A stretch of DNA of 64,000 nucleotides from Rhizobacter sp. AJA081-3 (lineage in GTDB: Bacteria; Pseudomonadota; Gammaproteobacteria; Burkholderiales; Burkholderiaceae_C), in NCBI RefSeq assembly GCF_017795745.1, contig NZ_CP059067.1, forward strand, positions 4,712,001 through 4,776,000. Direction: 5' to 3'. The notes under the pieces were generated by a model. It saw only the letters and a program-made list of their open reading frames with translations, was not told the origin of the DNA and did not search any database. This document shows positions 20,434 through 36,224 of this stretch, piece after piece. Positions within the stretch are counted from its first letter, which is position 1. The number at the start of each line of letters is the position of its first letter. The translations under genes were made by a program, and so were the position numbers.

Positions 20434-20575
20434 CTCTCGCTCTCCATGGACCAACGGGGATTCTGACGGAGCCCCATCCGCGGCCCCCTAGGGTGTTTCG
20501 ATACATGCATTCGCCGCCGGTCCACCCGGGTAATCCCGGCGTTGAGGCGCGGCGCGGCCGGCCCTATCCTTCATC

Positions 20576-20596
20576 AATTGGTCAGGCCACTTGACC
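20576..20596 (+). promoter_or_regulatory. Putative GntR operator, site 1 (upstream of the gntR gene of locus A)
   Basis: The element reads AATTGG, then TCAGG, then CCACTTGACC, ending 20 bases before the GntR ATG. Its 11-base core is a near-palindrome with half-sites TGGTC and GGCCA around an A. The same flanks with the reversed core occur upstream of the mannonate dehydratase gene at 34981-35001. The AATTGG-N5-CCA form agrees with operators of FadR-subfamily regulators such as UxuR and ExuR. The TTGACC part also resembles a -35 box. Binding by the adjacent GntR protein is inferred. Confidence 0.6.
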
Positions 20597-20616
20597 GCCT
20601 GAGTTTCCCACTCCCG

Positions 20617-21366
20617 ATGCCGCTGCAGACCATCGAGCCCCGCCGCCTGTACCGCCAGATCGCCGATCAGCTGCGCGTGCTGATCGACGGCGGCGAGTTT
20701 CCGGCCGGCGCCCGGCTGCCGCCCGAGCGTGATCTCGCGGTGCAGCTCGGCGTGTCGCGCCCCTCGGTGCGCGAGGCGCTGATCGCGCTGGAGGTCGAGG
20801 GCCGCGTCGAGGTGCGCATGGGCTCGGGCATCTACGTGCGCGCCGCCGACCCGGGCGCGCGCGCCGCAGCGCCGGCGCACGAGGCCGAGAGCCCGCTCGA
20901 GACCATCCGCGCGCGTCAGCTCATCGAGAGCGAGCTGGCCGCCTACGCGGCGCTGCACATGCGCCGGCCGCAGGTCGCCGGCTTGCGCGAGGCCATCGAG
21001 GTGATGGAGCAGGAGGCGGCCGCCAGCCACACCCCCACCGAGGGCGACCGTCTGTTCCACACGCGGATCGCCGAGGCCTGCGAGAACTCGGTGCTGCTGC
21101 GCGTGGTCAGCGAGCTGTTCGACGAGCGCCACAACCCGCTGTTCGAGCAGCTCGGCAGCCACTTCGAGACGGCGCACAGCTGGGCCGACGCGATCGAAGA
21201 GCACCGCGCCGTGGTCGACGCGATCGCCCACCAGTCGCCGCAGGGCGCCCGCGAAGCGATGGCACGCCACCTGGCCAATTCGCACGACCGCTTCATGGCG
21301 GGTTGGCAAGCCGAAACCGAGGCGCCGGCCAAGCCGGCATCCCGCAAGAGAAAGGCCGCACGATGA
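20617..21366 (+). CDS. GntR-family regulator, FadR/FCD subfamily
   Basis: A 249-residue repressor-type protein. ATG 20617 gives the usual start MPLQTIEPRRLYRQIADQL; upstream codons in frame do not look coding. The winged HTH is at residues 10-75 (FPAGARLPPERDLAVQLGVS, RPSVREALIALEVEGRVEVR). The FCD effector domain (about 95-235) has the metal ligands Asp and His of this family: EGDRLFHTRIAEACEN with Asp and His, and EEHRAVVDAI and ARHLANSHDRF with later histidines. A basic tail ends it. It heads the sugar-acid locus and overlaps the dehydrogenase gene by ATGA. The ligand is probably a sugar acid. It is not FadR in function merely because fadD is divergent. Confidence 0.92.
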   Translation: MPLQTIEPRRLYRQIADQLRVLIDGGEFPAGARLPPERDLAVQLGVSRPSVREALIALEVEGRVEVRMGSGIYVRAADPGARAAAPAHEAESPLETIRARQLIESELAAYAALHMRRPQVAGLREAIEVMEQEAAASHTPTEGDRLFHTRIAEACENSVLLRVVSELFDERHNPLFEQLGSHFETAHSWADAIEEHRAVVDAIAHQSPQGAREAMARHLANSHDRFMAGWQAETEAPAKPASRKRKAAR

Positions 21367-22391
21367 CACTCGCCTGCCGGATCCACGCCGCGAAGGACCT
21401 GCGGCTCGACGAGGTGGCCGATGCCGCGCTCGGCGACCACGAGGTCGAGATGCGCCTGGGCGCCGGCGGCATCTGCGGCTCCGACCTTCACTACTTCGGC
21501 CACGGCCGCGTCGGCGCCTTCGTGCTGCGCGAGCCGCTGATCCCGGGACACGAGGCCTCGGGCATCGTGCTGCGCACCGGTTCCGCGGTCACGCGCGTCA
21601 AGCCCGGCGACAAGGTGGCGGTGAACCCGTCGCACGCCTGCGGCCAGTGCGACTACTGCCTCGGCGGACGCTTCAACCTGTGCCGCAAGATGTTCTTTCT
21701 CGGCAGCGCCAGCGTGTTCCCGCATGCGCAGGGCCTGTTCCGCGAGCGTTTCGTGCTCGGGCAGGCCCAGCTCACGCCGGTGCACGAGGACATCTCGCTG
21801 GGCGAGCTGGCCTGCGCCGAGCCGCTGTCGATTGGCCTGCACGCGGTGCACCGCGCTGGCGTGCTGACCGGCAAGACGGTGCTCGTCACCGGCGGCGGCA
21901 CGATCGGCAGCATGTGCGTGATCGCCGCGCGGCTGGCCGGTGCCGCGCAGGTCATCGTCTGCGACATCGCCGACCGGCCGCTGACCATTGCGCAACAGGT
22001 GGGCGCCGACCGCGTCATCCGCAGCGACCAGATCGAAGCCGCTTCGCTGGCAGACATCGCCGACATCGCCATCGAGGCCGCCGGCAGCCCGGCCGCGCTG
22101 GCCACCTGCCTTTCGGCCACGCGCCGCGGCGGGCGCATCGTGCAGGTGGGCACGCTGCCCGCCGAAGGTGTGCAGTTCCCGGCCAACAGCATCATGGCGC
22201 GCGAGCTCGACTACGTCGGCGCCTTCCGCGCCGCACACGCCTTCGACTGGGCCGTGCAGTACCTGCGCACGCGCCGCGTCGACGTGCGGCCGCTGCTGTC
22301 GGCGCAGCTGCCGCTGTCGCGCGCCGCCGAAGCCTTCGCACTCGCCGCCGACCGCAGCCGCAGCACCAAGGTGCAGCTGGTCTGCGACTGA
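21363..22391 (+). CDS. Zinc-dependent L-idonate/L-gulonate 5-dehydrogenase-type enzyme
   Basis: A 342-residue medium-chain alcohol dehydrogenase. Catalytic zinc ligands are seen in GGICGSDLHYFGHG (Cys) and PGHEASG (His-Glu). The structural zinc has four cysteines in CGQCDYCLGGRFNLC. The nucleotide-binding motif is VLVTGGGTIGSMCVIAARL, and the Asp of IVCDIADRP suggests NAD preference. It resembles L-idonate 5-dehydrogenase, which makes 5-ketogluconate; in other bacteria relatives oxidise L-gulonate to fructuronate. The second activity would link directly to the fructuronate reductase and mannonate dehydratase of locus B. Substrate is therefore inferred. It is coupled to gntR and followed 59 bases later by dctP. 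Confidence 0.87.
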   Translation: MTLACRIHAAKDLRLDEVADAALGDHEVEMRLGAGGICGSDLHYFGHGRVGAFVLREPLIPGHEASGIVLRTGSAVTRVKPGDKVAVNPSHACGQCDYCLGGRFNLCRKMFFLGSASVFPHAQGLFRERFVLGQAQLTPVHEDISLGELACAEPLSIGLHAVHRAGVLTGKTVLVTGGGTIGSMCVIAARLAGAAQVIVCDIADRPLTIAQQVGADRVIRSDQIEAASLADIADIAIEAAGSPAALATCLSATRRGGRIVQVGTLPAEGVQFPANSIMARELDYVGAFRAAHAFDWAVQYLRTRRVDVRPLLSAQLPLSRAAEAFALAADRSRSTKVQLVCD

Positions 22392-22450
22392 GCCTTCCTC
22401 ATTCAACCGCAACACGCCGCCAGAGCGTTCAACCCCCCAGGAGACAGACC

Positions 22451-23422
22451 ATGAAACTCGTTTGGAAGGGCCTGCTGGCCTCCCTCACCCTCGCCGCCGC
22501 CGGCGGTGCCTTCGCGCAGACCAAGCAGCTCAAGTGGGCGCACGTCTACGAGACCAGCGAGCCGTACCACACCGAATCGGTGTGGGCCGCCGCCGAGATC
22601 AAGAAGCGCAGCAACGGCAAGTTCGACATCCAGGTCTTCCCCGCCTCGTCGCTGGGCAAGGAGACCGACATCAACCAGGGCATGACGCTCGGCACGGTCG
22701 ACATGATCATCAGCGGCACCTCGTTCGCCGCACGCAGCTACCCGCGCCTGGGCATCGCCTACTACCCGTTCATCTTCCGCGACGGCGAGCACCTGCTGGC
22801 CTACGCGAAGAGCGACGTGTTCAAGGAGATGGTCGAGGGCTACCGCGCCAAGACCGGCATCCAGATCACCGCGTACACCTACTACGGCGCGCGCCACACT
22901 ACGGCGCAGAAGCCGTTCACCGACTGCGCCGGCATGAAGGGCATCAAGATCCGCGTGCCCGACGTGCCCGCCTATCGCGCCACGCCTGAGGCCTGCGGCG
23001 CCAACCCGACGCCGATCGCCTTCGCCGAGGTCTACCTGGCGCTGCAGAACGGCACCGTCGACGCGCAGGAGAACCCGCTGACCACCATCGAGGCGAAGAA
23101 GTTCTACGAGGTGCAGAAGCACATCATGCTGACCGGCCACATCGTCGACGGCCTGACCACGCAGATCGCGCCGCACGTGTGGAACACGCTCTCCGACGCC
23201 GAGAAGAAGATGTTCACCGAGGTCACGCAGGAGGCCGCGGCGCGTGCCAGCGCGCAGATCAAGAAGCGCGAGTCGGAGCTGGTCGACGAGTTCAAGAAGA
23301 AGGGCCTGGGCGTGCACCAGATCAACCGCCAGAGCTTCGTCGACGCGGTGCTGAAGAACAAGTCCGTCGAGTCGCTCGGCCACGATCGCAAGGACTACGA
23401 CCGCATCGTCTCGATCAAGTGA
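22451..23422 (+). CDS. dctP: TRAP transporter substrate-binding protein (DctP family)
   Basis: A 323-residue periplasmic protein with a signal peptide (MKLVWKGLLASLTLAAAGGA, ending FAQ). The DctP fold is marked by LKWAHVYETSEPYHTESVW, FPASSLGKETDINQGMTLG, and the carboxylate-binding arginine region GMKGIKIRVPDVPAY. PTPIAFAEVYLALQNGTVDA is the typical second substrate segment. It captures an organic acid for uptake by the DctQM pair encoded next. Its neighbours suggest a hexonate or uronate. AGGAGA precedes ATG 22451. Confidence 0.95.
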   Translation: MKLVWKGLLASLTLAAAGGAFAQTKQLKWAHVYETSEPYHTESVWAAAEIKKRSNGKFDIQVFPASSLGKETDINQGMTLGTVDMIISGTSFAARSYPRLGIAYYPFIFRDGEHLLAYAKSDVFKEMVEGYRAKTGIQITAYTYYGARHTTAQKPFTDCAGMKGIKIRVPDVPAYRATPEACGANPTPIAFAEVYLALQNGTVDAQENPLTTIEAKKFYEVQKHIMLTGHIVDGLTTQIAPHVWNTLSDAEKKMFTEVTQEAAARASAQIKKRESELVDEFKKKGLGVHQINRQSFVDAVLKNKSVESLGHDRKDYDRIVSIK

Positions 23423-23423
23423 C

Positions 23424-23987
23424 ATGGATATCGATGCCCTGCCCAAGGTGATGGGGGACGACGGCGAGTTCCACGCCACGGACGAAGCCGTCGACCTGTC
23501 GCACACCACCATCGAGGGCTGGGTCTCGCTGGCGATCTTCTGGGCGCTCGGCGCGGTGGTGTTCTACCAGTTCTTCACCCGCTACGCGCTCAACAACTCG
23601 GCCTCCTGGACCGAGGAGATCGCCCGCTACCTGCTGATCGGCACCGTGTTCGTGGGCGCGTCGATCGGCGTGGCGAAGAACAACCACATCCAGGTCGACC
23701 TGCTGTACCGCTACCTGCCGGCACCGTTGTGCCGCGCGATGTCCCTGGTGGTCGACGTGCTGCGCATCGCGTTCTTCGCCGCCATGGTGGTGCTGACGGC
23801 GCAGATGATGCAGAAGATGGGCAGCTACCAGATGACGATCATCGACCTGCCGATGAACATCGTCTACGGCGTGTGCCTGTTCGGCCTGGCGATGATGGCG
23901 CTGCGCTCCGTGTGGGTGATGAAGGTGCACGTGCAGCGCGGCTACAGCGTGCTCGAGCGGCCCGAGACGACGATGGAAGACCGCTGA
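23424..23987 (+). CDS. dctQ: TRAP transporter small membrane subunit (DctQ family)
   Basis: A 187-residue inner-membrane protein with four predicted helices, typical of DctQ. A longish cytoplasmic N-terminus of about 30 residues precedes the first helix. The family motif SWTEEIARYLLIGTVFVGAS lies in the second helix region, followed by KNNHIQVDLLYRYLP. It starts one base after the dctP stop and is followed by dctM after one base, so the three subunits are made from one message. With DctM it uses the sodium gradient to import the substrate delivered by DctP. Confidence 0.94.
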   Translation: MDIDALPKVMGDDGEFHATDEAVDLSHTTIEGWVSLAIFWALGAVVFYQFFTRYALNNSASWTEEIARYLLIGTVFVGASIGVAKNNHIQVDLLYRYLPAPLCRAMSLVVDVLRIAFFAAMVVLTAQMMQKMGSYQMTIIDLPMNIVYGVCLFGLAMMALRSVWVMKVHVQRGYSVLERPETTMEDR

Positions 23988-23988
23988 C

Positions 23989-25383
23989 ATGCTCAAGATC
24001 ATCTTCCTCGTGCTGATGGCCAGCGGCCTGCCGGTGGCCATCGCGATGGCCGGCTCCTCATTGATCTACATCCTGGTCTCGGGCAACCAGCCGGCGCTGA
24101 CGGTGGTGCACCGCATGATCGGCGGCATCGACAGCTTCCCGCTGCTGGCGGTGCCCTTCTTCATCCTGGCCGGCAACCTGATGAACAACGCCGGCATCAC
24201 CAACCGCATCTACAACTTCGCGCTGGCGCTGGTGGGCTGGCTCAAGGGCGGCCTGGGCCACGTCAACGTGGTCGGCTCGGTGATCTTCGCCGGCATGAGC
24301 GGCACCGCCATCGCCGACGCAGCCGGCCTGGGCACCATCGAGATCAAGGCGATGAAGGACCACGGCTACGCCACCGAGTTCGCCGTCGGCGTGACGGCTG
24401 CGTCGGCCACGCTCGGCCCGATCATCCCGCCCTCGCTGCCCTTCGTCATCTACGCGATGATGGCCAACGTGTCGGTGGGCGCGCTGTTCCTCGCCGGCAT
24501 CCTGCCCGGCGTGCTGATGGCGCTGCTGATGATGATCACGGTGGCCTACTTCGCGCACAAGAACGGCTGGGGTGGCGACGTCAAGTTCTCCGGCTCGCGC
24601 TTCGGCAAGGCGCTGATCGAGATGGCGGTGGTGGCCGGCTGGCCGCTGGCGGTGTGGGGCCTGGTACAGGCAGGCATGCAGCCGCAGCTGACCGTGGCGG
24701 TGGCGCTGGTGGTGCTGTTCGCCGCCGACCGCTACTTCGGCTTCCAGGCGGTGCTGCCGATCATGACGCCGGTGCTGCTGATCGGCGGCATGACGACCGG
24801 GCTGTTCACGCCCACCGAAGGCGCCATCGCCGCCTGCGTGTGGTCGATGGTGCTGGGCCTGGCCTGGTACCGCACGATGCGCTGGAAGATGTTCGTCAAG
24901 GTCTGCCTCGACACGGTGGAGACCACCGCCACGGTGATGTTCATCGTCGCCGCCGCCTCGATCTTCGGCTGGATGCTCACCGCCACCGGCGTCACTGCGC
25001 AGATCGCCGCCTGGGTGCTGGCGGTGACCAAGGAGCCGTGGCTGTTCCTGCTGATGGCCAACCTGCTGATGCTGTTCGTCGGCTGCTTCCTCGAGCCGAC
25101 CGCGGCGATCACCATCCTCGTGCCCATCCTGCTGCCGATCGCGCGGCAGCTCGGCGTCGACCCGGTGCATTTCGGGCTGATCATGGTGCTCAACCTGATG
25201 ATCGGCCTGCTGCACCCGCCGATGGGCATGGTGCTGTTCGTGCTGGCGCGGGTGGCCAAGCTCAGCGTCGAGCGCACCACGATGGCCATCCTGCCCTGGC
25301 TCGTGCCGCTGCTGGGCAGCCTGATCCTGCTGACCTACGTGCCCTCGATCTCGATGTGGCTGCCGCGCACGATGGGCCTGTGA
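23989..25383 (+). CDS. dctM: TRAP transporter large membrane subunit (DctM family)
   Basis: A 464-residue channel-forming subunit with about twelve hydrophobic segments, longer than many DctM proteins (about 430). Typical parts are LLAVPFFILAGNLMNNAGIT, GSVIFAGMSGTAIADAAGLG, the conserved ASATLGPIIPPSLPFVIYAM, and GLFTPTEGAIAACVWSMVLG near the middle. The C-terminal half has VGCFLEPTAAITILVPILLP and GLLHPPMGMVLF, matching the second sodium-binding region. It completes the DctPQM transporter and is followed after 37 bases by the SDR gene of the same locus. Confidence 0.96.
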   Translation: MLKIIFLVLMASGLPVAIAMAGSSLIYILVSGNQPALTVVHRMIGGIDSFPLLAVPFFILAGNLMNNAGITNRIYNFALALVGWLKGGLGHVNVVGSVIFAGMSGTAIADAAGLGTIEIKAMKDHGYATEFAVGVTAASATLGPIIPPSLPFVIYAMMANVSVGALFLAGILPGVLMALLMMITVAYFAHKNGWGGDVKFSGSRFGKALIEMAVVAGWPLAVWGLVQAGMQPQLTVAVALVVLFAADRYFGFQAVLPIMTPVLLIGGMTTGLFTPTEGAIAACVWSMVLGLAWYRTMRWKMFVKVCLDTVETTATVMFIVAAASIFGWMLTATGVTAQIAAWVLAVTKEPWLFLLMANLLMLFVGCFLEPTAAITILVPILLPIARQLGVDPVHFGLIMVLNLMIGLLHPPMGMVLFVLARVAKLSVERTTMAILPWLVPLLGSLILLTYVPSISMWLPRTMGL

Positions 25384-25420
25384 ATCCGACTCGTTTTCCG
25401 TTTCGACCCAGGAGAAGACC

Positions 25421-26176
25421 ATGACCCAACGACTGGCCGGCAAGACGGCCTTCGTCACTGCCGCCGGGCAAGGCATCGGCCGCGCCGTCGCCGAGGCTTT
25501 CGTGCGCGAAGGCGCCGCGGTGATCGCCACCGACCTCAACGAGGCGTTGCTCGCCACGCTGCAAGGCACGCCCGGCGTGACCACGCGCCGCCTCGACGTG
25601 CTCGACCCGGCGGCCATCACCGCCGCAGCGAAGAGCGCCGGCGCGGTCGACATCCTCTTCAACGGCGCCGGCTTCGTGCACGCCGGCTCGGTGCTCGACT
25701 GCACCGAGGAGGAATGGGCCTTCGCCTTCGACCTCAACGTGCGCTCGCAATTCCGCACCATCAAGGCCTTCGTGCCCGGCATGCTGGCCAAGGGCGGCGG
25801 CTCGATCATCAACGTGGCCTCGGTGGCCGGCAGCATCAAGGGAGCGCCGAACCGCTTCGTCTACGGCACCACCAAGGCGGCGGTGATCGGCCTGACCAAG
25901 GCGGTGGCGGCCGACTTCATCACCAAGGGCGTGCGCTGCAACGCGATCTGCCCGGGCACGGTGGAGTCGCCCTCGCTGCGCGACCGCATCGCGGCGCAGG
26001 CCCAGGCGAGCGGCCAGACGCTGGCGCAGGTCGAGGCCGCGTTCATCTCACGCCAGCCGATGGGCCGGCTCGGCCGCGTGGAAGAAATCGCCGCGCTGGC
26101 GGTGTATCTTGCGAGCGACGAATCGTCCTTCACCACCGGCACCGCCCAGGTCATCGACGGCGGCTGGTCCAACTAA
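25421..26176 (+). CDS. SDR oxidoreductase, 2-keto-3-deoxy-L-fuconate dehydrogenase-like
   Basis: A 251-residue classical short-chain dehydrogenase. The cofactor motif is [15 protein letters not shown] with Asp in [10 protein letters not shown], pointing to NAD. The catalytic triad lies in [11 protein letters not shown] (Ser) and VYGTTKAAV (Tyr, Lys). [15 protein letters not shown] follows. The sequence resembles dehydrogenases that oxidise C4 of 2-keto-3-deoxy sugar acids (fuconate or rhamnonate route). With the next gene, a fumarylacetoacetase-fold hydrolase, it would form the diketo-acid branch in which a 2,4-diketo-3-deoxy acid is split to pyruvate and a hydroxyacid. A good AGGAGAAG site precedes ATG 25421. 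Confidence 0.9.
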
Positions 26177-26191
26177 CCTGAAGAGAAGAAC

Positions 26192-27058
26192 ATGAAGTTG
26201 ATGCGATATGGCGCCAAGGGCGCCGAGAAGCCTGCCCTCGTCGACGCGCAGGGCCATGTGCGCGATCTGTCCGGCGTGCTCGCCGACATCACCGCGCACA
26301 CCGTCACGCCCAAGGGGCTGGACCGCCTGCGCGCGCTCGACCCGAGCACATTGCCGCTGGTCGAGAAGCCCGGGCGCATCGCGCCGCCGTGGAGCGGCTG
26401 CGAGAAGTTCCTGTGCATCGGCCTGAACTACGCCGACCACGCGGCGGAGTCGAACCTGCCGATCCCGAAGGAACCGATCCTCTTCATGAAGCCGATCAGC
26501 GCCCGCGTCGGCCCGAACGACCCGGTGGTGCTGCCGCAGGGCTCGGTGAAGAGCGACTGGGAGGTCGAGCTCGGCGTGGTCATCGGCAGCAAGGCACGCT
26601 ATGTGTCGGAGGCCGAGGCGCTCAGCCACGTGGCCGGCTACTGCGTCATCAACGACGTGTCGGAGCGCGAGTACCAGATCGAGCGCGGCGGCACCTGGGA
26701 CAAGGGCAAGGGCTGCGACACCTTCGGCCCGGTGGGCCCGTGGTTGGTCACCAGCGACGAAGTGGGCGACCCGCAGAACCTGGCCATGTTCCTGGAGGTC
26801 AACGGACACCGCTTCCAGAACGGCAGCACCAAGACGATGATCTTCGGCGTGGCGCAGTTGGTGAGCTACGTCAGCCGCTTCATGACGCTGTACCCCGGCG
26901 ACCTGATCTCCACCGGCACGCCGCCGGGCGTGGGCATGGGCGTGAAGCCGAGCCCGGTGTTCCTGAAGGCCGGCGACACCATCAGGCTGGGCATCGAGAA
27001 GCTGGGCGAGCAGAACCAGAAGGTCTACGCCTGGGACCCGGCGATCATCGACGGCTGA
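26192..27058 (+). CDS. Fumarylacetoacetase-family hydrolase, 2,4-diketo-3-deoxy-sugar-acid hydrolase-like
   Basis: A 288-residue FAH-fold hydrolase. The N-terminal domain has KLMRYGAKGAEKPALVDAQG and IGLNYADHAAESNLPIP. The metal-binding catalytic domain has SDWEVELGVVIG with its Glu pair, IERGGTWDKGKGCDTFGPVG and FMTLYPGDLISTGTPPGVGMG. These features fit the branch that hydrolyses 2,4-diketo-3-deoxy-L-fuconate or -rhamnonate to pyruvate and lactate. The partner SDR is encoded 15 bases upstream, and the UxaA-type dehydratase four bases downstream. The same fold is used by ureidoglycolate lyase, but the neighbours favour the sugar-acid role. Confidence 0.92.
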   Translation: MKLMRYGAKGAEKPALVDAQGHVRDLSGVLADITAHTVTPKGLDRLRALDPSTLPLVEKPGRIAPPWSGCEKFLCIGLNYADHAAESNLPIPKEPILFMKPISARVGPNDPVVLPQGSVKSDWEVELGVVIGSKARYVSEAEALSHVAGYCVINDVSEREYQIERGGTWDKGKGCDTFGPVGPWLVTSDEVGDPQNLAMFLEVNGHRFQNGSTKTMIFGVAQLVSYVSRFMTLYPGDLISTGTPPGVGMGVKPSPVFLKAGDTIRLGIEKLGEQNQKVYAWDPAIIDG

Positions 27059-27062
27059 CTCG

Positions 27063-28586
27063 ATGAGCGCCTTCATCCGCATCCACCCGGCCGACGATGT
27101 CGTTATCGCCAAGCAGCAGTTGATCGGCGGCACGCTGCTGGAGGGTGAAGGTGTCACCGTGGCCGGGCTGATCCCGCCCGGCCACAAGGTGGCCGTGAGG
27201 TCGATCCGCGCCGGAGCGCCGGTGCGGCGCTACAACCAGATCATCGGCACCGCCCGCGTCGACATCGCGCCCGGCCAGCACGTGCACACGCACAACCTGG
27301 AGTTCGCCAGCTTCGCGCGCGACTACGCAGTGGGCACCAGCGTGCAGCCGACCGAGTACGCGGCCGAGCCGGCCAGCTTCATGGGCATCGTGCGCCCCGA
27401 CGGGCGCGTGGCCACGCGCAACTACCTCGGCGTGCTGACCTCGGTGAACTGCTCGGCCACCGCGGCGCGCGCGATCGCCGACCACTTCCGCCGCGACGTC
27501 AACCCGCGGGCGCTGGAGCGATTCCCGAACGTCGACGGCGTGGTCGCGCTGACGCACGGCGCCGGCTGCGCGACGGCCAGCGACGGCGAGCCGCTGCAGA
27601 TCCTGCGCCGCACGCTGGGCGGCTACGCACGCCATGCCAACTTCGCCGGTGTGCTGATGGTGGGCCTGGGCTGCGAGACCAACCAGATCTCCGGCCTGCT
27701 CGAGCAGGAAGGCCTGCAGGAGGGCTCTCAGCTGCAGACCTTCAGCATCCAGGACAGCGGCGGCACGAAGAAGACGGTGGCCAAGGGCATCGAGCTGATC
27801 GAGTGGATGCTGGAAGAGGCCAACCGCGTCCAGCGCCAGCCGGTGCCGGCCAGCCACATCACCGTGGGCCTGCAGTGCGGCGGCTCCGACGGCTATTCCG
27901 GCATCAGCGCCAACCCGGCGCTGGGCGCCGCGGTGGACCGCCTGGTGCGCCATGGCGGCACGGCCATCCTGTCCGAATCTCCCGAGGTCTACGGCGGCGA
28001 GCACCTGCTGACGCGGCGCGCCGTGTCGCAGCAGGTCGCCGACAAGCTGGTCGCCCGACTCAAGTGGTGGGAAGACTACTGCGCGCGCAACGGCGGCGAG
28101 ATGGACAACAACCCCTCGGCCGGCAACAAGGCCGGCGGCCTGACCACCATCCTCGAGAAGAGCCTGGGCGCGATCGCCAAGAGCGGCACGACCAACCTGG
28201 TCGAGGTCTACGAGTACGCGCAACCCGTCACGGCCAAGGGCCTCGTCTTCATGGACACGCCCGGCTACGACCCGGTGTCGGCCACCGGGCAGGTGGCCGG
28301 CGGCGCCAACCTGATCTGCTTCACCACCGGCCGAGGCTCGGCTTACGGCTGCGCGCCCTCGCCGTCGCTGAAGCTGAGCACCAACACGGCCCTGTGGCTC
28401 AAGCAGGAAGACGACATCGACATCAACTGTGGCGAGGTGGTCGACGGCACGGCCAGCATCGACGAACTGGGCGAGCGCATCTTCCGCCTGATGCTGGAGA
28501 CGGCCTCCGGCCGCCAGACCAAGAGCGAGGGGCACGGCTACGGCCAGAGCGAGTTCGTGCCCTGGCAACTCGGCGCGGTCATGTAG
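27063..28586 (+). CDS. UxaA/GarD-family sugar-acid dehydratase (altronate dehydratase-like)
   Basis: A 507-residue dehydratase, full length for UxaA (495) or GarD (523). Residues 1-90 form the SAF domain (IRIHPADDVVIAKQQLIGG, GHKVAVRSIRAGAPVRRYNQ). The catalytic part begins FMGIVRPDGRVATRNYLGVL and contains THGAGCATASDG, MVGLGCETNQISGL with a Cys, and LQCGGSDGYSGISANPALG. NNPSAGNKAGGLTTILEKSL is also conserved. The enzyme dehydrates an aldonate to a 2-keto-3-deoxy acid, using iron or manganese. Altronate is the classical substrate, but the SDR and hydrolase beside it suggest another sugar acid. It is the last gene of locus A. Confidence 0.92.
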   Translation: MSAFIRIHPADDVVIAKQQLIGGTLLEGEGVTVAGLIPPGHKVAVRSIRAGAPVRRYNQIIGTARVDIAPGQHVHTHNLEFASFARDYAVGTSVQPTEYAAEPASFMGIVRPDGRVATRNYLGVLTSVNCSATAARAIADHFRRDVNPRALERFPNVDGVVALTHGAGCATASDGEPLQILRRTLGGYARHANFAGVLMVGLGCETNQISGLLEQEGLQEGSQLQTFSIQDSGGTKKTVAKGIELIEWMLEEANRVQRQPVPASHITVGLQCGGSDGYSGISANPALGAAVDRLVRHGGTAILSESPEVYGGEHLLTRRAVSQQVADKLVARLKWWEDYCARNGGEMDNNPSAGNKAGGLTTILEKSLGAIAKSGTTNLVEVYEYAQPVTAKGLVFMDTPGYDPVSATGQVAGGANLICFTTGRGSAYGCAPSPSLKLSTNTALWLKQEDDIDINCGEVVDGTASIDELGERIFRLMLETASGRQTKSEGHGYGQSEFVPWQLGAVM

Positions 28587-28604
28587 CGGTCGGCGCCCGT
28601 CACA

Positions 28605-28622
28605 CCCTGTTGCTGGACAGGG
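28605..28622 (+). terminator. Weak hairpin after the UxaA-type gene
   Basis: Arms CCCTGT and ACAGGG pair around TGCTGG, 18 bases after the dehydratase stop. No U-tract follows. It could end the locus A transcript. Confidence 0.3.
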
Positions 28623-28670
28623 CTGGGCGGCTGCGCGAGGATGGGGCCGCCGTCCACGGAGGGGGTCACC

Positions 28671-29105
28671 ATGACGCGCGCACTTCGTTCCCTGCTTCGC
28701 GCCATCGCTGCGCTCGGCCTGGCCGTGTCTCTGTCGGCACAGGCCGCCGGCGTCTCCCGGGCCGACGCGCAGAAGGTGCGCGCGGTCATCCAGGCCCAGC
28801 TCGCTGCCTTCGCGGCCGACGACGCGCGGCGCGCCTTCTCGTTCGCAGCGCCCGGCATCCGCCAGATGTTCGGCACGCCGCAGCGCTTTCTCGACATGGT
28901 GCGCGAGGGCTACCCGGTGGTCTACCGGCCGGCCTCGGTCGGCTTCCTGAAGCCCGAAGCCAACGGTCGCACGGTCATCCAGGCCGTCGAGATGGCCGAT
29001 GGCGAGGGCACGCTGTGGGTCGCCGTCTATCAGCTCGAGCGCCACAAGGGTGCCTGGCGCATCACCGGCTGCGAGCTGGTGCCCAGCGACGGCAAGGTGA
29101 TCTGA
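28671..29105 (+). CDS. Secreted DUF4864 protein
   Basis: A 144-residue exported protein. The signal peptide (LRAIAALGLAVSLSAQAAG) ends near residue 26. The mature domain has DAQKVRAVIQAQLAAFAADD, AFSFAAPGIRQMFGTPQRF, MVREGYPVVYRPASVGF and AWRITGCELVPSDG, which match DUF4864, an NTF2-like small fold. Function unknown; relatives are often annotated as putative periplasmic proteins. GGAGGGGG precedes ATG 28671. It stands alone between locus A and the ABC transporter genes and does not look part of either. Confidence 0.87.
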   Translation: MTRALRSLLRAIAALGLAVSLSAQAAGVSRADAQKVRAVIQAQLAAFAADDARRAFSFAAPGIRQMFGTPQRFLDMVREGYPVVYRPASVGFLKPEANGRTVIQAVEMADGEGTLWVAVYQLERHKGAWRITGCELVPSDGKVI

Positions 29106-29249
29106 TTCACCGCCGCGCAGCCAAGCTCACCATCTCGGGGCAGGCCATGCACCAGCAGGGCTGCTGATCGCACCGCGCCGGACAGGACATCAGCCCGCCT
29201 TCCTGGGCAGGGCACATGGCACGGCCTATGCATCACTCATCGCAAGCGC

Positions 29250-29269
29250 AGTGACGGCCGTCCGTCACT
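29250..29269. repeat. Perfect inverted repeat upstream of the ABC transporter operon
   Basis: Arms AGTGACGG and CCGTCACT flank CCGT, 113 bases before the substrate-binding protein start. In this 276-base gene-free gap it is the clearest structure. It could be an operator or a terminator of the preceding gene (TTT follows on the plus strand). Confidence 0.35.
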
Positions 29270-29381
29270 TTCCGGTTGGCGTGCCGAACTCAGTGCGTGC
29301 GTGCTCGCAGAATGAGTCGGCCAACGGGTTCGTCCCATTTCTTGCGTGGCTCGCAGGCACCTGGCTTCAGGAGTCGAGACG

Positions 29382-30443
29382 ATGTGCGAGCGCCATGGCA
29401 ACACCCATTCCCAACTGAGTTCCCTGTCCCGCCGGGGATTCCTCAAATCCTCTTCGGCCACCGCGGTGTCGGTGGCCCTGCCCGCGGGGCTGGCCGCCGC
29501 GCTGGGCGCGACGGACGCGGCAGCAGCCACCACCCTCAAGGCCACGCACGGCGCGGGCCTGTGCAACCTGGGCATCTTCCTCGCGAAGAAGCGTGAGCTG
29601 GCCAAGGCCGACGGCGTCGAGCTCGACTTCGTCGTCACGCCGACCACCACCGACGTGGTCACGCTGTTCGGCTCCGGCCAGGTGGACATCTCGGTGATTC
29701 CCTATTCCAACTTCCTCACCCTGGTGGACGCCGGCGCACCCGTGCGCATGGTGGCCGGCGCCGGCGTCGAGGGCTGCATCCTGATCGGCCGCGACGGCAT
29801 CAAGACCGCCGCCGACCTGAAGGGCAAGACCATCGGCACCTTCCAGGCCGACACGCTGGAGGTACTGCCCTACGACTACCTGAAGAAGGCCGGCATGTCG
29901 TTCAAGGACGTGAAGATGGCCTACTTCAACACCTCGCCCGAGCTGGCCGCCGCCTTCATCAACGGCGGCATCGATGCGGTCTGCCACATCGAGCCCTACG
30001 CCACGCAGTGCCTGACCTCGCGCAAGGGCGCCACGGTGCTGACCGACGGGCGCGACGTCTACGGCCGCAACTACGCCGACTGCGTGCTGGCCGCGCGCAT
30101 CCCGCTGATCGAGAAGAACCCGCAGGCGATCAAGGCCGTCATCAAGGCGATGTTCGTCGCGCAGAGCCAGGCAGAGAAGGACCCGGCCGCGGCGCTGAAG
30201 GACACCGTCGGCACCTATTACAAGACCTCGCTCGAGGCGGCCACGCTGGCGCAGAGCAAGCAGCCGGTGATGATCGATCAGCGGCACAACGCGAAGTTCT
30301 TCGCCGAGCGCGGCCAGTCGATGATGGAGATGGGCTACGTGAAGAAGCCCATGCCGGCCAGCGCGCTCGACTGGAGCCTGATCGAGCAGGTGATCAAGGA
30401 GAACAAGCCGCTGTACGACTCGCTCAGGCTGAAGGCGGCCTGA
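29382..30443 (+). CDS. ABC transporter substrate-binding protein, NMT1/SsuA-like
   Basis: A 353-residue periplasmic protein with a Tat signal: SRRGFLKSSSATAVSVALP around residues 17-35. The mature NMT1-like domain has LKATHGAGLCNLGIFLAKK, TTTDVVTLFGSGQVDISVIP, AADLKGKTIGTF and IDAVCHIEPYATQCL. Such proteins bind nitrate, sulfonates, pyrimidine precursors or other small polar compounds. The ATG at 29382 has AGGAG nine bases upstream and gives the shortest leader that keeps the twin arginines. The permease, ATPase and an amidohydrolase follow in one operon, so the ligand is probably a substrate of that enzyme. Confidence 0.9.
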   Translation: MCERHGNTHSQLSSLSRRGFLKSSSATAVSVALPAGLAAALGATDAAAATTLKATHGAGLCNLGIFLAKKRELAKADGVELDFVVTPTTTDVVTLFGSGQVDISVIPYSNFLTLVDAGAPVRMVAGAGVEGCILIGRDGIKTAADLKGKTIGTFQADTLEVLPYDYLKKAGMSFKDVKMAYFNTSPELAAAFINGGIDAVCHIEPYATQCLTSRKGATVLTDGRDVYGRNYADCVLAARIPLIEKNPQAIKAVIKAMFVAQSQAEKDPAAALKDTVGTYYKTSLEAATLAQSKQPVMIDQRHNAKFFAERGQSMMEMGYVKKPMPASALDWSLIEQVIKENKPLYDSLRLKAA

Positions 30444-30451
30444 GGCGCGCC

Positions 30452-31366
30452 ATGGCTGCCGTTCCTGCCATGGTGGAGCCTGCCGTGCCCCTGGCCCCGC
30501 CGGTGGCCGCCGCCGCGCGGCAGCGCCCCTCGGCGCTGCTCGCGCGGCTGCGCTCCGCGCTGTGGGCCTGCGCCTCGGTCGGGCTGTTCGTCGGGGTGTG
30601 GGAGTTCTCCTGGTGGCGCGGCTGGGCCGACCCGCTGCTGCTGCCGCCGCCGCACCTGTTCCTGGCGAACCTGGCCGACCAGTTCCGCTTCTTCGACCCG
30701 AACGGCGACCGCGCCGGCGCGCTGTCCTCGGGCGGCAGCCTCGGCTCGGTGCTCGGCGTGATCGCCTGGACCTCGCTGCGCGTGACGGCCGGGCTGGCGC
30801 TGGGCTTCGTGCTCTCGCTGGCGGTGGGCGTGGGCATCCGCTACTTCGGCGTGTTCGGCAAGCTCACGCTGCCGACCATCACGCTGCTCGCGCCGATCTC
30901 GCCGGTCGCCTGGCTGCCGGTGGCGGTGTTCATGTTCGGCATCGGCAACCCGCCGGCGGTGTTCCTGGTCTTCATCTCGGTGTTCTTCGTGATGGTGCTG
31001 TCCACGCTGTCGCAGATCGACGCGGTGCCGGCGAGCTACCTGCGCGTGGCGCGCATCATGGGCGCCACCAAGCGGCAGCTGTTCCGCCACGTCATCCTGC
31101 CGGCCATCCTGCCGGGCCTGTTCGTGACGCTGCGGCTGAACCTGTTCGCCGCCTGGATGGTGGTGCTGATCGCCGAAGCCGTGGGCGTGGGCTCCGGCCT
31201 CGGCCAGGTGGTGATGATGGCGCGCAACACCTTCAACGCCAGCCTGGTGTTCTTCACGATGACGCTGATCGGCCTGGCCGGCTTCGCCTTCGACCAGGCA
31301 CTGCGCTGGGTGCAGCGCCGCGTGCTGTGGTGGGTGGGCCCTTCCGCCGCCGCGGGAGGCCTGTGA
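30452..31366 (+). CDS. ABC transporter permease, SsuC/TauC type
   Basis: A 304-residue inner-membrane subunit with six or seven predicted helices. A Pro/Ala-rich cytoplasmic N-terminus of about 35 residues precedes WACASVGLFVGVWEFSWW. The EAA loop that contacts the ATPase is in YLRVARIMGATKRQLFRHVI, then LPAILPGLFVTLRLNLFAAW. GVGSGLGQVVMMARNTFNAS is typical of the nitrate, sulfonate and taurine permease group. It starts eight bases after the binding-protein gene and its stop overlaps the ATPase start (TGATG). Confidence 0.95.
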   Translation: MAAVPAMVEPAVPLAPPVAAAARQRPSALLARLRSALWACASVGLFVGVWEFSWWRGWADPLLLPPPHLFLANLADQFRFFDPNGDRAGALSSGGSLGSVLGVIAWTSLRVTAGLALGFVLSLAVGVGIRYFGVFGKLTLPTITLLAPISPVAWLPVAVFMFGIGNPPAVFLVFISVFFVMVLSTLSQIDAVPASYLRVARIMGATKRQLFRHVILPAILPGLFVTLRLNLFAAWMVVLIAEAVGVGSGLGQVVMMARNTFNASLVFFTMTLIGLAGFAFDQALRWVQRRVLWWVGPSAAAGGL

Positions 31367-32151
31367 TGGGCAGCGCCATTCAACTGAACCGCGTCACCAA
31401 GATCTGGAACGAGGGCGAGCCCGGCGCGGTCACCGCAGTCGAGTCGCTCTCGCTGCAGGTCGGCGAAGGCGAGTTCGTCGTGCTGCTCGGCCCCTCGGGC
31501 TGCGGCAAGAGCAGCCTGCTGTACATGCTGGCCGGGCTGGAGCAGCCCAGCGCCGGCGAGTTGCTGTGTGATGGCAGGCGCGTCGCCGGCCCGGCGCCCG
31601 AGCGCAGCATGATCTTCCAGGAGGCCTCGCTCTACCCCTGGCTCACCGTGCTCGACAACGTCGCTCTCGGGCTGCGGCTGCAGGGGGTGGAACGGGCCGA
31701 GCGCGAAACCCGCGCCCAGGCCCTGCTGCGCCAGGTCGGCCTGGGCGACATGGGCCAGCGGCGGCCGCACGAACTCTCCGGCGGCATGCGCCAGCGTGTC
31801 GCGCTGGCCCGCGCACTGGCGATGAAGCCCAGGGTGCTGCTGATGGACGAGCCCTTCGCCGCGCTCGACGTGCAGACGCGCGCCCGCATGCAGGGCCACC
31901 TGCTCGAAGTGTGGCGCGCCAGCGGCGCCAGCGTGCTGCTGGTGACGCACTCGATCGACGAGGCGCTCGCGCTGGCCGACCGCATCGTCGTCTTCACCGC
32001 CCGGCCGGGGCGCGTGAAGCACGAGGTGAGCGTCGAGCTGCCGCGCCCGCGCAACCCCCACGACCTGCGAATGGTCGACCTGCACCGCCAGCTCACCGAG
32101 CTGCTGGCCGACGAGGTCGACCGCGCCTTCCTCGAACAGGAAACCCGATGA
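31366..32151 (+). CDS. ABC transporter ATP-binding protein, SsuB/TauB type
   Basis: A 261-residue cytoplasmic ATPase for the permease encoded upstream. Walker A is GPSGCGKSSL, the Q-loop is in MIFQEASLYPWLTV, the signature is LSGGMRQRVALARAL, Walker B is VLLMDEPFAALD and the switch histidine is in LLVTHSIDEAL. FTARPGRVKHEVSVELPRPR is the C-terminal form seen in the nitrate/sulfonate group. Start and stop overlap its neighbours on both sides, so translation is coupled from the permease to the amidohydrolase. Confidence 0.96.
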   Translation: MGSAIQLNRVTKIWNEGEPGAVTAVESLSLQVGEGEFVVLLGPSGCGKSSLLYMLAGLEQPSAGELLCDGRRVAGPAPERSMIFQEASLYPWLTVLDNVALGLRLQGVERAERETRAQALLRQVGLGDMGQRRPHELSGGMRQRVALARALAMKPRVLLMDEPFAALDVQTRARMQGHLLEVWRASGASVLLVTHSIDEALALADRIVVFTARPGRVKHEVSVELPRPRNPHDLRMVDLHRQLTELLADEVDRAFLEQETR

Positions 32152-33689
32152 CCGTCTCCCTCGTCTCGGCCCGCTGGATCGTCACCGGCGTGGCCGATCG
32201 GCACACGCCCGTGATCCACTCGGACGCCGCCCTCGCCCACGACAACGGCCGCGTCATCGCGGTCGGCCCGGCGGCACAGATGCGCGCCGCCTACCCCGGC
32301 GCGAGCGAAACCCGCTACCCGCAGCACATGATGCTGCCGGGCTTCGTCAACAGCCACCACCACGTCGGCATGACCCCGCTGCAGCTGGGCTCGCCCGACT
32401 ACGCGCTGGAGCTGTGGTTCGCCAGCCGGCTGTCGGCACGCGACATCGACCCCTACCTCGACACGCTGTACTCGGCGTTCGAGATGCTGGCCTCCGGCGT
32501 GACCACGGTGCAGCACATCCACGGCTGGATGCGCGGGCCCTACAGCCATGTGCACGACACGGCGTCGGCGGTGCTGAACGCCTACCGCGACATCGGCATG
32601 CGCGCCTCGTACTGCTTCGCGGTGCGCGAGCAGAACCGCTTCGTCTACGAGGCCGACGAAGACTTCTGCGCCCGCCTGCCGCCCGAGGTGGGCGCGGCGA
32701 TGGCCGCGCACCTGAAGGCGCAGGCCATGCCCTTCGCCGACTTCATGCAGCTGTTCGACGACCTGGTGGCCGAGAACCGCTCCGAGCTCACGCGCATGCA
32801 GCTGGCACCGGCCAACCTGCACTGGGTCAGCGACGACGGCCTGCTGGCGATGAAGGAGAAGGCCGACGCCGCCGGCGTGCCGATGCACATGCATCTGCTC
32901 GAGACGGCGATGCAGAAGGCGTACGCGAAGCGCCGCACCGGCACCACCGCCGTCAAGCACCTGCACAAGCTCGGCCTGCTCGGCCCGAAGCTCACGCTCG
33001 GCCACGGCGTCTGGCTGACCGAGGAGGACATCGAGCTCGCCGCCCACACCGGCACTTGCATCTGCCACAACTGCAGCAGCAACTTCCGCCTGCGCAGCGG
33101 CCTGCTGCCGCTGATGGAATACGAGAAGCGCGGCATCACCGTCGGCATGGGCCTGGACGAGGCCGGCCTCAACGACGACCGCGACATGCTGCAGGAGCTG
33201 CGCCTGGCGCTGAACGTGCACCGCGTGCCCGGGCTCGACGACGACGAGGTGCCCAGCTGCCCGCAGGTGCTTCGCATGGCCACCGAACACGGCGCCCACA
33301 CCACCGCCTTCGGCGCCGACATCGGCCGGCTCGACGCGGGCCGCTACTTCGACGCCGTGGTGATCGACTTCGACCGCGCCATGTACCCCTACCAGGACGA
33401 CGACATCCCGCCGCTGGACGCGCTGATCCAGCGCGCCAAGACCCAGCACGTGGCGGCCGTGATGGTCGGCGGCGAACTGGTCTGCGAGAACGGCCGCTTC
33501 ACCCGCATCGACCGCGACGCGACGCTGGAGAAGCTCGCCCAGGCGCTGTCGAAGCCGCGCACCGAGGCCGAGAACCACCGGCGCTGGCTGCGCCGCGAAG
33601 TCTTCCCGCAGGTGAAGAACTTCTACCGCCACTACCTCGACGAGGAACCTGCTCGCGAGCCGTTCTACGGGAATTCTTCTCGCCGCTGA
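32148..33689 (+). CDS. Amidohydrolase/deaminase-family enzyme of unknown substrate
   Basis: A 513-residue metal-dependent hydrolase of the ATZ/TRZ/guanine-deaminase branch. The metal-binding HxH appears in MLPGFVNSHHHVGMTPLQLG. Further ligands are in MHMHLLETAM, LGHGVWLTEEDI and GMGLDEAGLNDDRDM, with the final Asp. The last third carries the composite beta-sandwich typical of this fold. The enzyme should hydrolyse or deaminate an N-heterocycle or amide. Its start overlaps the ABC ATPase stop, so uptake and hydrolysis of one compound are linked. The substrate cannot be read from sequence. Confidence 0.92.
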   Translation: MTVSLVSARWIVTGVADRHTPVIHSDAALAHDNGRVIAVGPAAQMRAAYPGASETRYPQHMMLPGFVNSHHHVGMTPLQLGSPDYALELWFASRLSARDIDPYLDTLYSAFEMLASGVTTVQHIHGWMRGPYSHVHDTASAVLNAYRDIGMRASYCFAVREQNRFVYEADEDFCARLPPEVGAAMAAHLKAQAMPFADFMQLFDDLVAENRSELTRMQLAPANLHWVSDDGLLAMKEKADAAGVPMHMHLLETAMQKAYAKRRTGTTAVKHLHKLGLLGPKLTLGHGVWLTEEDIELAAHTGTCICHNCSSNFRLRSGLLPLMEYEKRGITVGMGLDEAGLNDDRDMLQELRLALNVHRVPGLDDDEVPSCPQVLRMATEHGAHTTAFGADIGRLDAGRYFDAVVIDFDRAMYPYQDDDIPPLDALIQRAKTQHVAAVMVGGELVCENGRFTRIDRDATLEKLAQALSKPRTEAENHRRWLRREVFPQVKNFYRHYLDEEPAREPFYGNSSRR

Positions 33690-33803
33690 ATGCCCTCGCC
33701 AGCGCTGGCACGAAGTTCGCACAAGGAGGTTCATTCGAACCAATCGGGGCCGTTTCACCCGTCAAAGTGCCGTTTAGCGGCGCACGGAGTGACCGGAAAC
33801 CAC

Positions 33804-33926
33804 ATGAACGACAAGAATCGTCACCGCGCGACGCCCACGCCCAAGGGCTATCTGCCGAACTGGGCGCTCGTGCTGTGCATCGCCAGCGCCTTCGTGCTCG
33901 TCGCCCTGGCGCGCTCGATCGTCTGA
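33804..33926 (+). CDS. Putative 40-residue single-span membrane protein
   Basis: The frame gives a basic, hydrophilic N-terminus (MNDKNRHRATPTPKGYLP) and one hydrophobic helix NWALVLCIASAFVLVALARS. No strong ribosome binding site is seen, only GGAAACC. No function can be given. It lies in the 300-base space between the amidohydrolase and creA genes. Coding is likely because the helix is clear and the frame is bounded by AT-poor sequence, but not certain. Confidence 0.5.
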   Translation: MNDKNRHRATPTPKGYLPNWALVLCIASAFVLVALARSIV

Positions 33927-33989
33927 ACCGGGTCGCTGCGGCCTGACCCGGCCTCGGGTACGCTCGGCTCCATCGCCACGGAGCCCGAG

Positions 33990-34460
33990 ATGACGAAGTC
34001 CTTGATTGCCGCCCTCGCGCTGGCCGCCTGCGCCGCCAGCTCGCGCGCCGAACCGGTCGGCGAGGTCGACACGGTGTTCAAGTGGATCGGCCCCGACCAC
34101 AAGATCGTCGTCGATGCCTACGACGACCCCGACGTGGCCGGCGTGACCTGCTACGTCTCGCGCGCCAAGACCGGCGGCATCAAGGGCGGTCTGGGCCTGG
34201 CCGAGGACAAGGCCGAAGCCTCGATCGCCTGCCGCCAGACCGGCCCGATCAGCTTCCCCAAGCCGCTGCGCCAGCAGGACGAGATGTTCAGCGAGCGCAT
34301 CTCTCTGGTCTTCAAGAAGCTGCGCGTCGTGCGCATGGTCGACAAGCCGCGCAACACGCTGGTCTACCTGACCTACTCCGACCGCGTCATCGAAGGCTCG
34401 CCGCAGAACAGCGTGACCGCGGTGCCGGTGGACCGCGGCACGCCGATCCCGCTGCGCTGA
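33990..34460 (+). CDS. creA: CreA-family periplasmic protein
   Basis: A 156-residue exported protein. The signal peptide covers about residues 1-20 ([20 protein letters not shown]). The mature part fits CreA well: [60 protein letters not shown], and [20 protein letters not shown]. The cysteines in VTCYVS and IACRQT probably form a disulfide. CreA is widespread in proteobacteria but its function is unknown. ATG 33990 follows GGAGCCCGAG. The AHSA1 gene begins nine bases downstream. Confidence 0.92.
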
Positions 34461-34469
34461 GGAGACGCC

Positions 34470-34928
34470 ATGCAGACCGACCTCGTGATCTCCCGCCTGT
34501 TGAATGCGCCGCGCGCCGCACTGTGGCGGGCCTGGACGGAACCCGCCTTGCTGGCGGAGTGGTGGTGCCCGAAGCCCTGGACCACCCAGGTCAAGGCCTT
34601 CGAACTGCGCCCCGGCGGCGATTTCCACACCTTCATGCAGGGGCCTGACGGCGGCACCAGCGACAACCCGGGCTCGTTCCTGGAGATCGTGCCCGGGGCC
34701 CGGCTCGTCTTCACGTCGCAACTGACCGGGGGCTGGCGGCCGGCCACGCCCTGGATGGCCTTCACGGCCGTCATCAGCCTCGCCGATGAACTGGGCGGCA
34801 CGCGCTACGTGGCCACCGTGATGCACCCGGACGAGGCGACACGGGCGCGCCATGAGGAGCTCGGCTTCTTCGAGGGGCTGGAACCGGCCATCGACCAGCT
34901 CGAGGCGACCGCCCGCCAGATTCCCTGA
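34470..34928 (+). CDS. AHSA1/SRPBCC-family protein
   Basis: A 152-residue cytoplasmic protein of the START-like SRPBCC fold. It begins DLVISRLLNAPRAALWRAWT and continues EPALLAEWWCPKPWTTQVKA, LRPGGDFHTFMQGPDG, GSFLEIVPGARLVFTSQL and TRYVATVMHPDEATRARHEE. The WW and P.W motifs in the first third are usual for this family, which binds hydrophobic ligands or acts as a cochaperone-like domain. Function unknown. It shares a short transcript with creA and ends 53 bases before the operator of locus B. Confidence 0.9.
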   Translation: MQTDLVISRLLNAPRAALWRAWTEPALLAEWWCPKPWTTQVKAFELRPGGDFHTFMQGPDGGTSDNPGSFLEIVPGARLVFTSQLTGGWRPATPWMAFTAVISLADELGGTRYVATVMHPDEATRARHEELGFFEGLEPAIDQLEATARQIP

Positions 34929-34980
34929 GAGGTCGCGCTAGAGGAAAACGCGAATGGGAGGCAGCAGGGCAGGCCCGCAA

Positions 34981-35001
34981 AATTGGCCTGACCACTTGAC
35001 C
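34981..35001 (+). promoter_or_regulatory. Putative GntR operator, site 2 (upstream of mannonate dehydratase)
   Basis: The element reads AATTGG, then CCTGA, then CCACTTGACC, ending 11 bases before the ATG at 35013. The outer parts are identical to site 1 at 20576-20596; the inner five bases differ, and the 11-base core TGGCCTGACCA is the exact reverse complement of the site 1 core. Control of locus B by the GntR protein of locus A is inferred from this. Confidence 0.6.
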
Positions 35002-35012
35002 ACTGCCCTCCG

Positions 35013-36224
35013 ATGAAGATCACCGCCGCGCGCGTCATCGTCTGCTGCCCCGGGCGCAACTTCGTCACCCTGAAGATCGAGACCGACCAGGGCCTGACGG
35101 GCCTGGGCGATGCCACGCTCAACGGGCGCGAGCTCGCGGTGGTGAGCTACCTGACGGACCATGTCATCCCCTGCCTGATCGGCCGCGACGCGCACCAGAT
35201 CGAGGACATCTGGCAATACCTCTACCGCGGCGCCTACTGGCGGCGCGGGCCGGTGACGATGAGCGCCATCGCCGCCGTCGACACCGCGCTGTGGGACCTG
35301 AAGGCCAAGGCCGCCGGCATGCCGCTGTACCAGTTGCTCGGCGGCGCCAGCCGCACCGGCGTGATGGTCTACGGGCATGCCAACGGCCGCGACATCGAAC
35401 AGACCGTCGACGAGGTGCTGCGCTACAAGGAAGAAGGCTACAAGGCGATCCGCGCGCAGAGCGGCGTGCCGGGGCTGGAGAAGGTCTACGGCGTCGGCCG
35501 CGGCACGATGTTCTACGAGCCGGCCGATGCCGACCTGCCGAGCGAGCACGACTGGTCGACCGAGAAGTACCTGCGCCACACGCCCCAACTGTTCGAGGCG
35601 GTGCGCGCCGCCGTCGGCCCCGACACCCACCTGCTGCACGACGTGCACCACCGCCTCACGCCGATCGAGGCGGCGCGCCTGGGCAAGGACCTGGAGCCCC
35701 ATCGCCTGTTCTGGATGGAAGACGCCACGCCGGCGGAGAACCAGGAGGCCTTCCGCCTGATCCGCCAGCACACCACCACGCCGCTGGCGGTGGGCGAGGT
35801 GTTCAACACCATCTGGGACTGCAAGGACCTGATCCAGAACCAGCTGATCGACTACATCCGCACGACCGTCGTGCACGCCGGCGGCATCACCCACCTGCGG
35901 CGCATCGCCGACCTGGCAGCGATGTACCAGGTGCGTACCGGCAGCCATGGCGCGACGGACCTGTCGCCGGTGTGCATGGGCGCGGCGCTGCACTTCGACC
36001 TGTGGGTGCCGAACTTCGGCATCCAGGAGTACATGCGTCACACCGAGGAGACGGACGCGGTGTTCCCTCATGCGTACACCTTCGAGGACGGCTTCCTGCA
36101 CCCCGGCGAGACACCCGGCCACGGCGTCGAGATCGACGAAGCGCTGGCCGCGAGGTACCCCTACCAGCGCGCCTACCTGCCGGTGAACCGGCAGCAGCAC
36201 GACGGCACGCTGTGGCACTGGTGA
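35013..36224 (+). CDS. manD: D-mannonate dehydratase, enolase superfamily (ManD type)
   Basis: A 403-residue enolase-superfamily enzyme that dehydrates D-mannonate to 2-keto-3-deoxy-D-gluconate using Mg2+. Comparing from memory with the characterised Novosphingobium ManD, all active-site residues fall at the same numbers: Asn37, His122, Arg147, Tyr159, metal ligands Asp210, Glu236 and Glu262, plus His212, Arg283, His312, Asp316, Glu339 and a terminal Trp403. Residue 314 is Ala ([10 protein letters not shown]), the state linked to lower-efficiency members. It heads locus B: fructuronate reductase-type, Ldh-type and KDG kinase genes follow with overlaps. The GntR-like site lies just upstream. 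Confidence 0.95.

Follow-up and report, generated by a model that had tools for sequence, protein, structure and literature searches.

The Two Sites and Their Genetic Setting

The window analyzed in this work is a 64,000-nucleotide (nt) stretch of the 5.40-Mb genome of Rhizobacter sp. AJA081-3. Two groups of sugar-acid genes were distinguished within it (Table 1). The first (operon A, 20617-28586) extends from gntR, encoding a FadR-type regulator of the GntR family, through a garD-like gene, and the second (operon B, 35013-39614) is composed of manD, encoding D-mannonate dehydratase, and three downstream genes; judging from gene spacing and strand, each of them probably forms one transcription unit. 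It had been stated in the initial annotation of this DNA that the two loci are split by 6 kb of other genes and that each of them is preceded, just before its start codon, by an AATTGG element; the intervening genes span about 6 kb, and both elements were read exactly as stated. Both elements match AATTGG-N5-CCACTTGACC exactly, their outer parts are identical, and the 11-base core TGGTCAGGCCA (20579-20589) is the exact reverse complement of the core TGGCCTGACCA (34984-34994). The comparison with related genomes suggests that both elements are very probably operators of the GntR protein, uniting two sugar-acid operons in one regulon, with binding as a prediction; they are most likely ordinary repressor-binding sites.

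Table 1. Predicted features of the two loci and of the segment between them (start codons of the operon B genes downstream of manD were picked by us)
Feature	Position	Strand	Remarks
Putative sigma-70-like gntR promoter, TTGAGG (20542-20547)-17 nt-TATCCT (20565-20570)	20542-20570	+	8/12 consensus matches
Operator 1 (predicted), AATTGGTCAGGCCACTTGACC	20576-20596	+	20 nt 5' of the gntR ATG (20617); 5 nt past the -10-like element
gntR, FadR/FCD-type GntR regulator, 249 amino acids	20617-21366	+	PF00392 + PF07729
Zn-dependent alcohol dehydrogenase, L-idonate 5-dehydrogenase-like	21366-22391	+	NF007375, 301.6 bits, below the cut-off of 469
TRAP transporter: dctP 22454-23422, dctQ 23424-23987, dctM 23989-25383	22454-25383	+	
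SDR dehydrogenase 25421-26176; FAH-family hydrolase 26192-27058	25421-27058	+	FAH hydrolase: 466.1 vs cut-off of 500 of 2,4-didehydro-3-deoxy-L-rhamnonate hydrolase
Galactarate/altronate dehydratase-family (garD-like) gene, last of operon A	27063-28586	+	TIGR03248, 407.2 bits, cut-off 730.85
Intervening genes: DUF4864, SsuABC-like ABC transporter, TRZ/ATZ-type amidohydrolase, creA, AHSA1	28641-34928	+	
Operator 2 (predicted), AATTGGCCTGACCACTTGACC	34981-35001	+	11 nt 5' of the manD ATG (35013)
manD, D-mannonate dehydratase, enolase family	35013-36224	+	NF043051, 761.6 bits, above the cut-off of 550
Fructuronate reductase/mannitol dehydrogenase family	about 36227-37624	+	
Ldh_2-family dehydrogenase	about 37621-38667	+	
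PfkB-family, KDG-kinase-like	about 38664-39614	+	

With up to three mismatches allowed, the two sites were the sole matches in the window (0.19 expected; two or more matches in 1 of 100 shuffles); TGGYNNNRCCA occurs there four times and TTGGYNNNRCCA only at the two sites. The exact matches of the 16-base pattern in the whole genome were also these two. At up to three mismatches, the genome gave 20 matches vs 40 for the reversed control, so that nothing stands out except the exact pair and two linked matches 5' of a paralogous gntR, at 2682098 (two mismatches) and 2682130 (three mismatches). A degenerate pattern with one mismatch gave seven matches vs one in the control, three of the seven in addition to the window pair and the paralogue pair. 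Pairs of window places with an identical 6+N5+10 word numbered 380 vs 54-73 in 15 order-3 Markov resamples; when a reverse-complement core was added, one pair was observed vs 0-3 (mean of about 0.7) in the resamples. The pair match by itself is not significant within the window, and it is this result that speaks for the view that two promoter regions resemble each other by accident. The argument for operators therefore rests on the position of the sites before start codons and on their conservation in relatives.

Conservation of the Site before gntR

Among 200 genomes of the family, the GntR protein was matched (E ≤ 1e-60) 45 times, in 44 genomes, and scanning of 200 nt revealed TGGYNNNRCCA 22-102 nt 5' of the matched start in all 45 cases, with a second, more distant copy within 200 nt at a few of these loci. 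One match (G119:C20), belonging to the group of the paralogue, was omitted from the dyad-centred alignment of the remaining 44 loci. Three positions show no variation in this alignment (A at -7, C at -1, and C at +11), and strong conservation is seen on the right side of the dyad for CTTG and CCA. It must be added that TGGY and RCCA were demanded by the search pattern, so their own invariance is no evidence. Among loci from named records, 12 of 13 carry TGGYNNNRCCA and L107, the remaining one, differs from it by a single mismatch; these loci probably overlap in part with the organisms of the genome set, and a 14th locus (Vibrio, 21% identity) was not included.

Locus L035 reads GGTCAAGTGG-CCTGA-CCACTTGACC, that is, the same 10 bases make both of its arms, which is the behaviour expected of an operator half-site. 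This also bears on the possibility that CTTGACC is a -35 element or another part of a promoter, which the resemblance of TTGACC to the TTGACA hexamer might suggest. We consider it highly improbable, since, besides the double use of these bases in L035, a -10-like element lies upstream of CTTGACC at gntR, and only 11 or 20 nt separate the sequence from the ATG, too few to accommodate a -10 element and a start point; CTTGACC was rejected as a -35 box for this lack of space.

The strict 21-base pattern RAYTGGYCWKRCCACYTGNCC was found 43 times, in 37 of the 200 genomes, vs a single match of the reversed control. As established by scripted coordinates, 33 of these matches precede gntR genes matched in the protein search (one, in G119, in the opposite orientation) and three precede manD. 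The other seven were assigned by translation, BLAST, and Pfam. Three of them lie before gntR genes whose products are 45-51% identical to that of the window (G031, G009, and G052), and two near a pathway SDR gene (G005, 73% identical; G082, 55% identical). Many unrelated occurrences, named in the initial annotation as the finding that would speak against a common regulon, were looked for and did not appear: 41 of the 43 matches stand before a gntR of the window kind, manD, or the pathway SDR. Of the last two, one is located before the TRAP gene dctP in G005 and one in G164, where it separates a gntR of the paralogue group from an Amidohydro_2 gene; both are possible members of sugar-acid pathways. 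With the site present at every regulator locus and before manD in all three genomes of the genus (see below), and with this excess over the control, conservation rules out chance pairing, whose probability we regard as negligible.

The Core Sequence

In the initial annotation the shared operator-like element was distinguished by its reversed core; the element proved to be real, but the reversal is no special feature. The cores found at the 44 gntR sites were TCAGG (9), CCTGA (9), TCAGA (8), TCTGA (8), CCTTA (7), TCTTA (2), and TCATA (1), and a tree of 30 of the 44 orthologues (those with longer fetched loci, without L033) requires no fewer than 15 changes of the core. Genome G193 has the same TCAGG/CCTGA pair as the window, and G091 has TCAGA twice. 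These changes, together with the identical cores of G091, rule out a special core inversion, and as the window cores are two of the common states, their reversal is ordinary freedom within a pseudo-palindrome.

Both a TKGT and an ACMA box are present in 19 of the 44 gntR sites (those with TCAGA, TCTGA, TCTTA, and TCATA cores). In the other 25, whose cores are asymmetric, TGGTMA is preserved on one of the two sides in every case, whichever way the core is oriented. A single box is complete in each window site (TGGT or ACCA), and its partner is GCCA or TGGC. We tentatively suggest, while considering it rather doubtful, that in this family pieces separated from the gntR operon tend to be equipped with an operator copy and that an asymmetric core may obey a rule of one intact half, which, if true, would explain the equivalence of the "reversed" cores. 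The first tendency is exemplified by manD in all three genomes of the genus, the SDR-FAH genes on another contig and dctP in G005, and, in G082, an SDR gene at a distance of about 3 kb from gntR; manD genes devoid of the site in G162, G118, and G186 are counterexamples. As for the rule, tests on the tree had too few independent pairs to reach significance, and CCAGA before dctP (G005:C1:562609-562629) and TCTTG in L126 are exceptions.

Layout of the Clusters and the Site before manD

The arrangement of the two operons differs between relatives. In G078, manD begins 10 nt past the last codon of the garD-like gene and the cluster has a single site. In the sister genome G091, the two operons lie side by side (about 385 nt from the garD-like gene to manD) with a site before each of them, and in G193 creA lies between the two loci. 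None of the genes of the window segment 28641-34928 was found between the loci in G091, and only creA in G193 (tblastn, 1e-15, within the fetched stretches); the amidohydrolase of this island was not found in six relatives at E ≤ 1e-60, in a search run without a positive control. We infer a direction of events in which one cluster would have gained a second operator and the island would later have entered the window lineage. The three layouts (a single cluster, neighbouring operons that have an operator each, and operons separated by 6 kb) form a natural series for studying how a regulon survives the break-up of an operon.

Several observations weigh against both sites being operators of this GntR. 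Although ManD was matched (E ≤ 1e-150) in 21 of the 200 genomes, an AATTGG-type site precedes manD only in the three genomes of the same genus (3/3), to which the support from manD is thus limited, and none was found within 300 nt of the 18 other manD genes, three of which have only looser, unlike matches. Eight of these 18 genes lie within 12 kb of gntR (six downstream on the same strand; those of G133 and G199 upstream), three on another contig (G068, G118, and G186), and six in genomes with no gntR match at the threshold; the remaining one, in G162, is located 1.9 Mb from gntR and is also without the site. Furthermore, one half of each window site reads GC in place of the consensus GT/AC, the promoter scan gave no manD promoter, and near-identical sites occur at a paralogous gntR/ABC-transporter locus, which makes the assignment of regulator to site less certain.

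Paralogous Regulator

This second GntR of the genome, 46% identical to that of the window and encoded at 2682219, is divergent from the genes of a sugar ABC transporter (ATPase, permease, and periplasmic binding protein). Its intergenic region (C1:2682098-2682150; L003 from 1501, L086 from 5099) contains two near-identical sites, TGGTAAGGCCA and TGGCCTTACCA, 32 bp apart, with mutually reversed cores (TAAGG/CCTTA).

It is therefore conceivable, though on balance we doubt it, that the operators are shared by two paralogous GntR proteins, which would cross-regulate or heterodimerise as is reported for ExuR and UxuR of E. coli. Besides the pair in the paralogue's own intergenic region, this is favored by TGGYNNNRCCA sites at 15 of the 17 loci of the paralogue group (scanned between -350 and +60 nt relative to the matched start) and by the description of ExuR/UxuR cross-regulation and heterodimers in the consulted part of PMC9369180. 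The paralogue is, however, not needed for the site, as 38 of the 44 genomes with a window-type gntR, including G091 with both operators, have no paralogue match at E ≤ 1e-75, and C of the operators corresponds to A in the paralogue's own sites of the window genome, a difference by which the two kinds of site might be told apart. The claim of one GntR regulon over both loci is in this way supported by the comparison (45/45 gntR loci, 3/3 manD loci, and 43 matches vs 1) and weakened by a paralogue with near-identical sites, and binding by the window GntR to both operators stays a prediction.

Promoters and the Proposed Mechanism

The putative gntR promoter ends 5 nt before operator 1, so the operator would cover the presumed start of transcription, a placement to be expected of a repressor site; G091 has TTGAGC-N17-TATCCT in the same place. 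An automatic promoter scan (threshold of 9/12) and a terminator scan gave no result at either site. A weak ATGGGM-N18-CARAAT sequence is present 5' of manD in three genomes. It was also observed that AAACGNGNATGGG, a spacer, and then CARAAT stand 5' of the manD operator (about 34946-34983 in the window) in the window, G091, and G193 alike; this shared element may be a weak promoter or an activator site.

According to the proposed mechanism, a GntR dimer would bind the pseudo-palindrome AATTGG-YCWGR-CCACTTG. Occupation of operator 1 would block transcription of operon A (autorepression), occupation of operator 2 would block that of manD and operon B, and a metabolite of the hexuronate/aldonate pathway would release GntR from both. 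Binding, repression rather than activation, and the effector are inferred from what is described for the FadR subfamily (PMC4494728) and for ExuR/UxuR (PMC9369180), in the portions of these articles consulted; the manD promoter and the order of evolutionary events are likewise presumptive.

Relation to Known Systems

The window GntR scored 75.1 bits with PF00392 and 85 bits with PF07729, both exceeding the gathering scores, and the FCD domain confirms the FadR type. The initial annotation compared it to UxuR and ExuR, and here only the subfamily could be upheld: the best NCBIfam models were indeed ExuR (NF008571, 145 bits) and UxuR (NF007588, 144.3 bits), but these scores are far below the cut-offs of 396 and 442, respectively. 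The closest named record is a 98% identical protein from a metagenome-assembled genome of Piscinibacter sp. ExuR and UxuR have an AATTGG-type consensus; its letters were not found in the two papers searched for them (PMC9369180 and PMC12842492).

Operators of the FadR subfamily, as characterized in the consulted part of Suvorova et al. 2015 (PMC4494728), consist of TKGT/ACMA boxes, usually with 3-nt spacing, and further, weaker half-sites at a distance of 7-12 nt from the centre. The window sites resemble them in the type of box (one complete box in each site), the spacing, the weaker outer half-site, and the location of a site beside the regulator's own operon, and differ in that one half reads GC instead of GT or AC. 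The GT-AC spacing reported there is 3 nt for ExuR and 2 nt for UxuR; both window sites (TGGYNNNRCCA) have 3 nt, as in ExuR and unlike UxuR.

As in E. coli, where UxuR represses uxuAB, coding for mannonate dehydratase and its partner (PMC9369180, in part), there are two paralogues, with ExuR and UxuR as the best models. The window GntR nevertheless reaches only about one third of the curated cut-offs, and its genes encode a ManD dehydratase and a TRAP transporter. The gene set as a whole resembles the L-gulonate cluster of Haemophilus influenzae joined to a Route III-like trio. With the former (PMC5788505) it shares the TRAP transporter, L-gulonate dehydrogenase, UxuB, mannonate dehydratase, and KdgK; that cluster, whose genes are co-induced (the uxuR gene was among those measured), has UxuA where the window has ManD, and the SDR-FAH-garD-like trio is not mentioned in the part of the article consulted. 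The trio of operon A is similar to the non-phosphorylative Route III clusters (COG2721 dehydratase, COG1028 dehydrogenase, and COG3970 hydrolase; PMC6336799, in part), the COG correspondence being our own reading; unlike in those clusters, it is joined to a hexuronate-type branch. Among titles and the beginnings of abstracts, we recognized no publication describing this regulon, subscription papers and supplements being beyond reach. For a sugar-acid regulon of this family, candidates are offered here for the operator, the regulator, and the set of genes, the regulation appearing otherwise ordinary.

A Second Element before gntR

Apart from the operator, AGGGTTTTGCCGGATG was observed at 20 of the 44 gntR loci (e.g., L034, L036-L040, and L042-L047), scoring at least 12/16 at 50-52 bp before the operator dyad; the window is not among these loci, many of which have a TAACCCTTA-like block downstream. 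This element may be a site of a second regulator. Its slightly degenerate form was found in eight places in 7 of 10 chosen relatives, one of them, as judged by eye, before a single-stranded-DNA-binding-protein-like gene.

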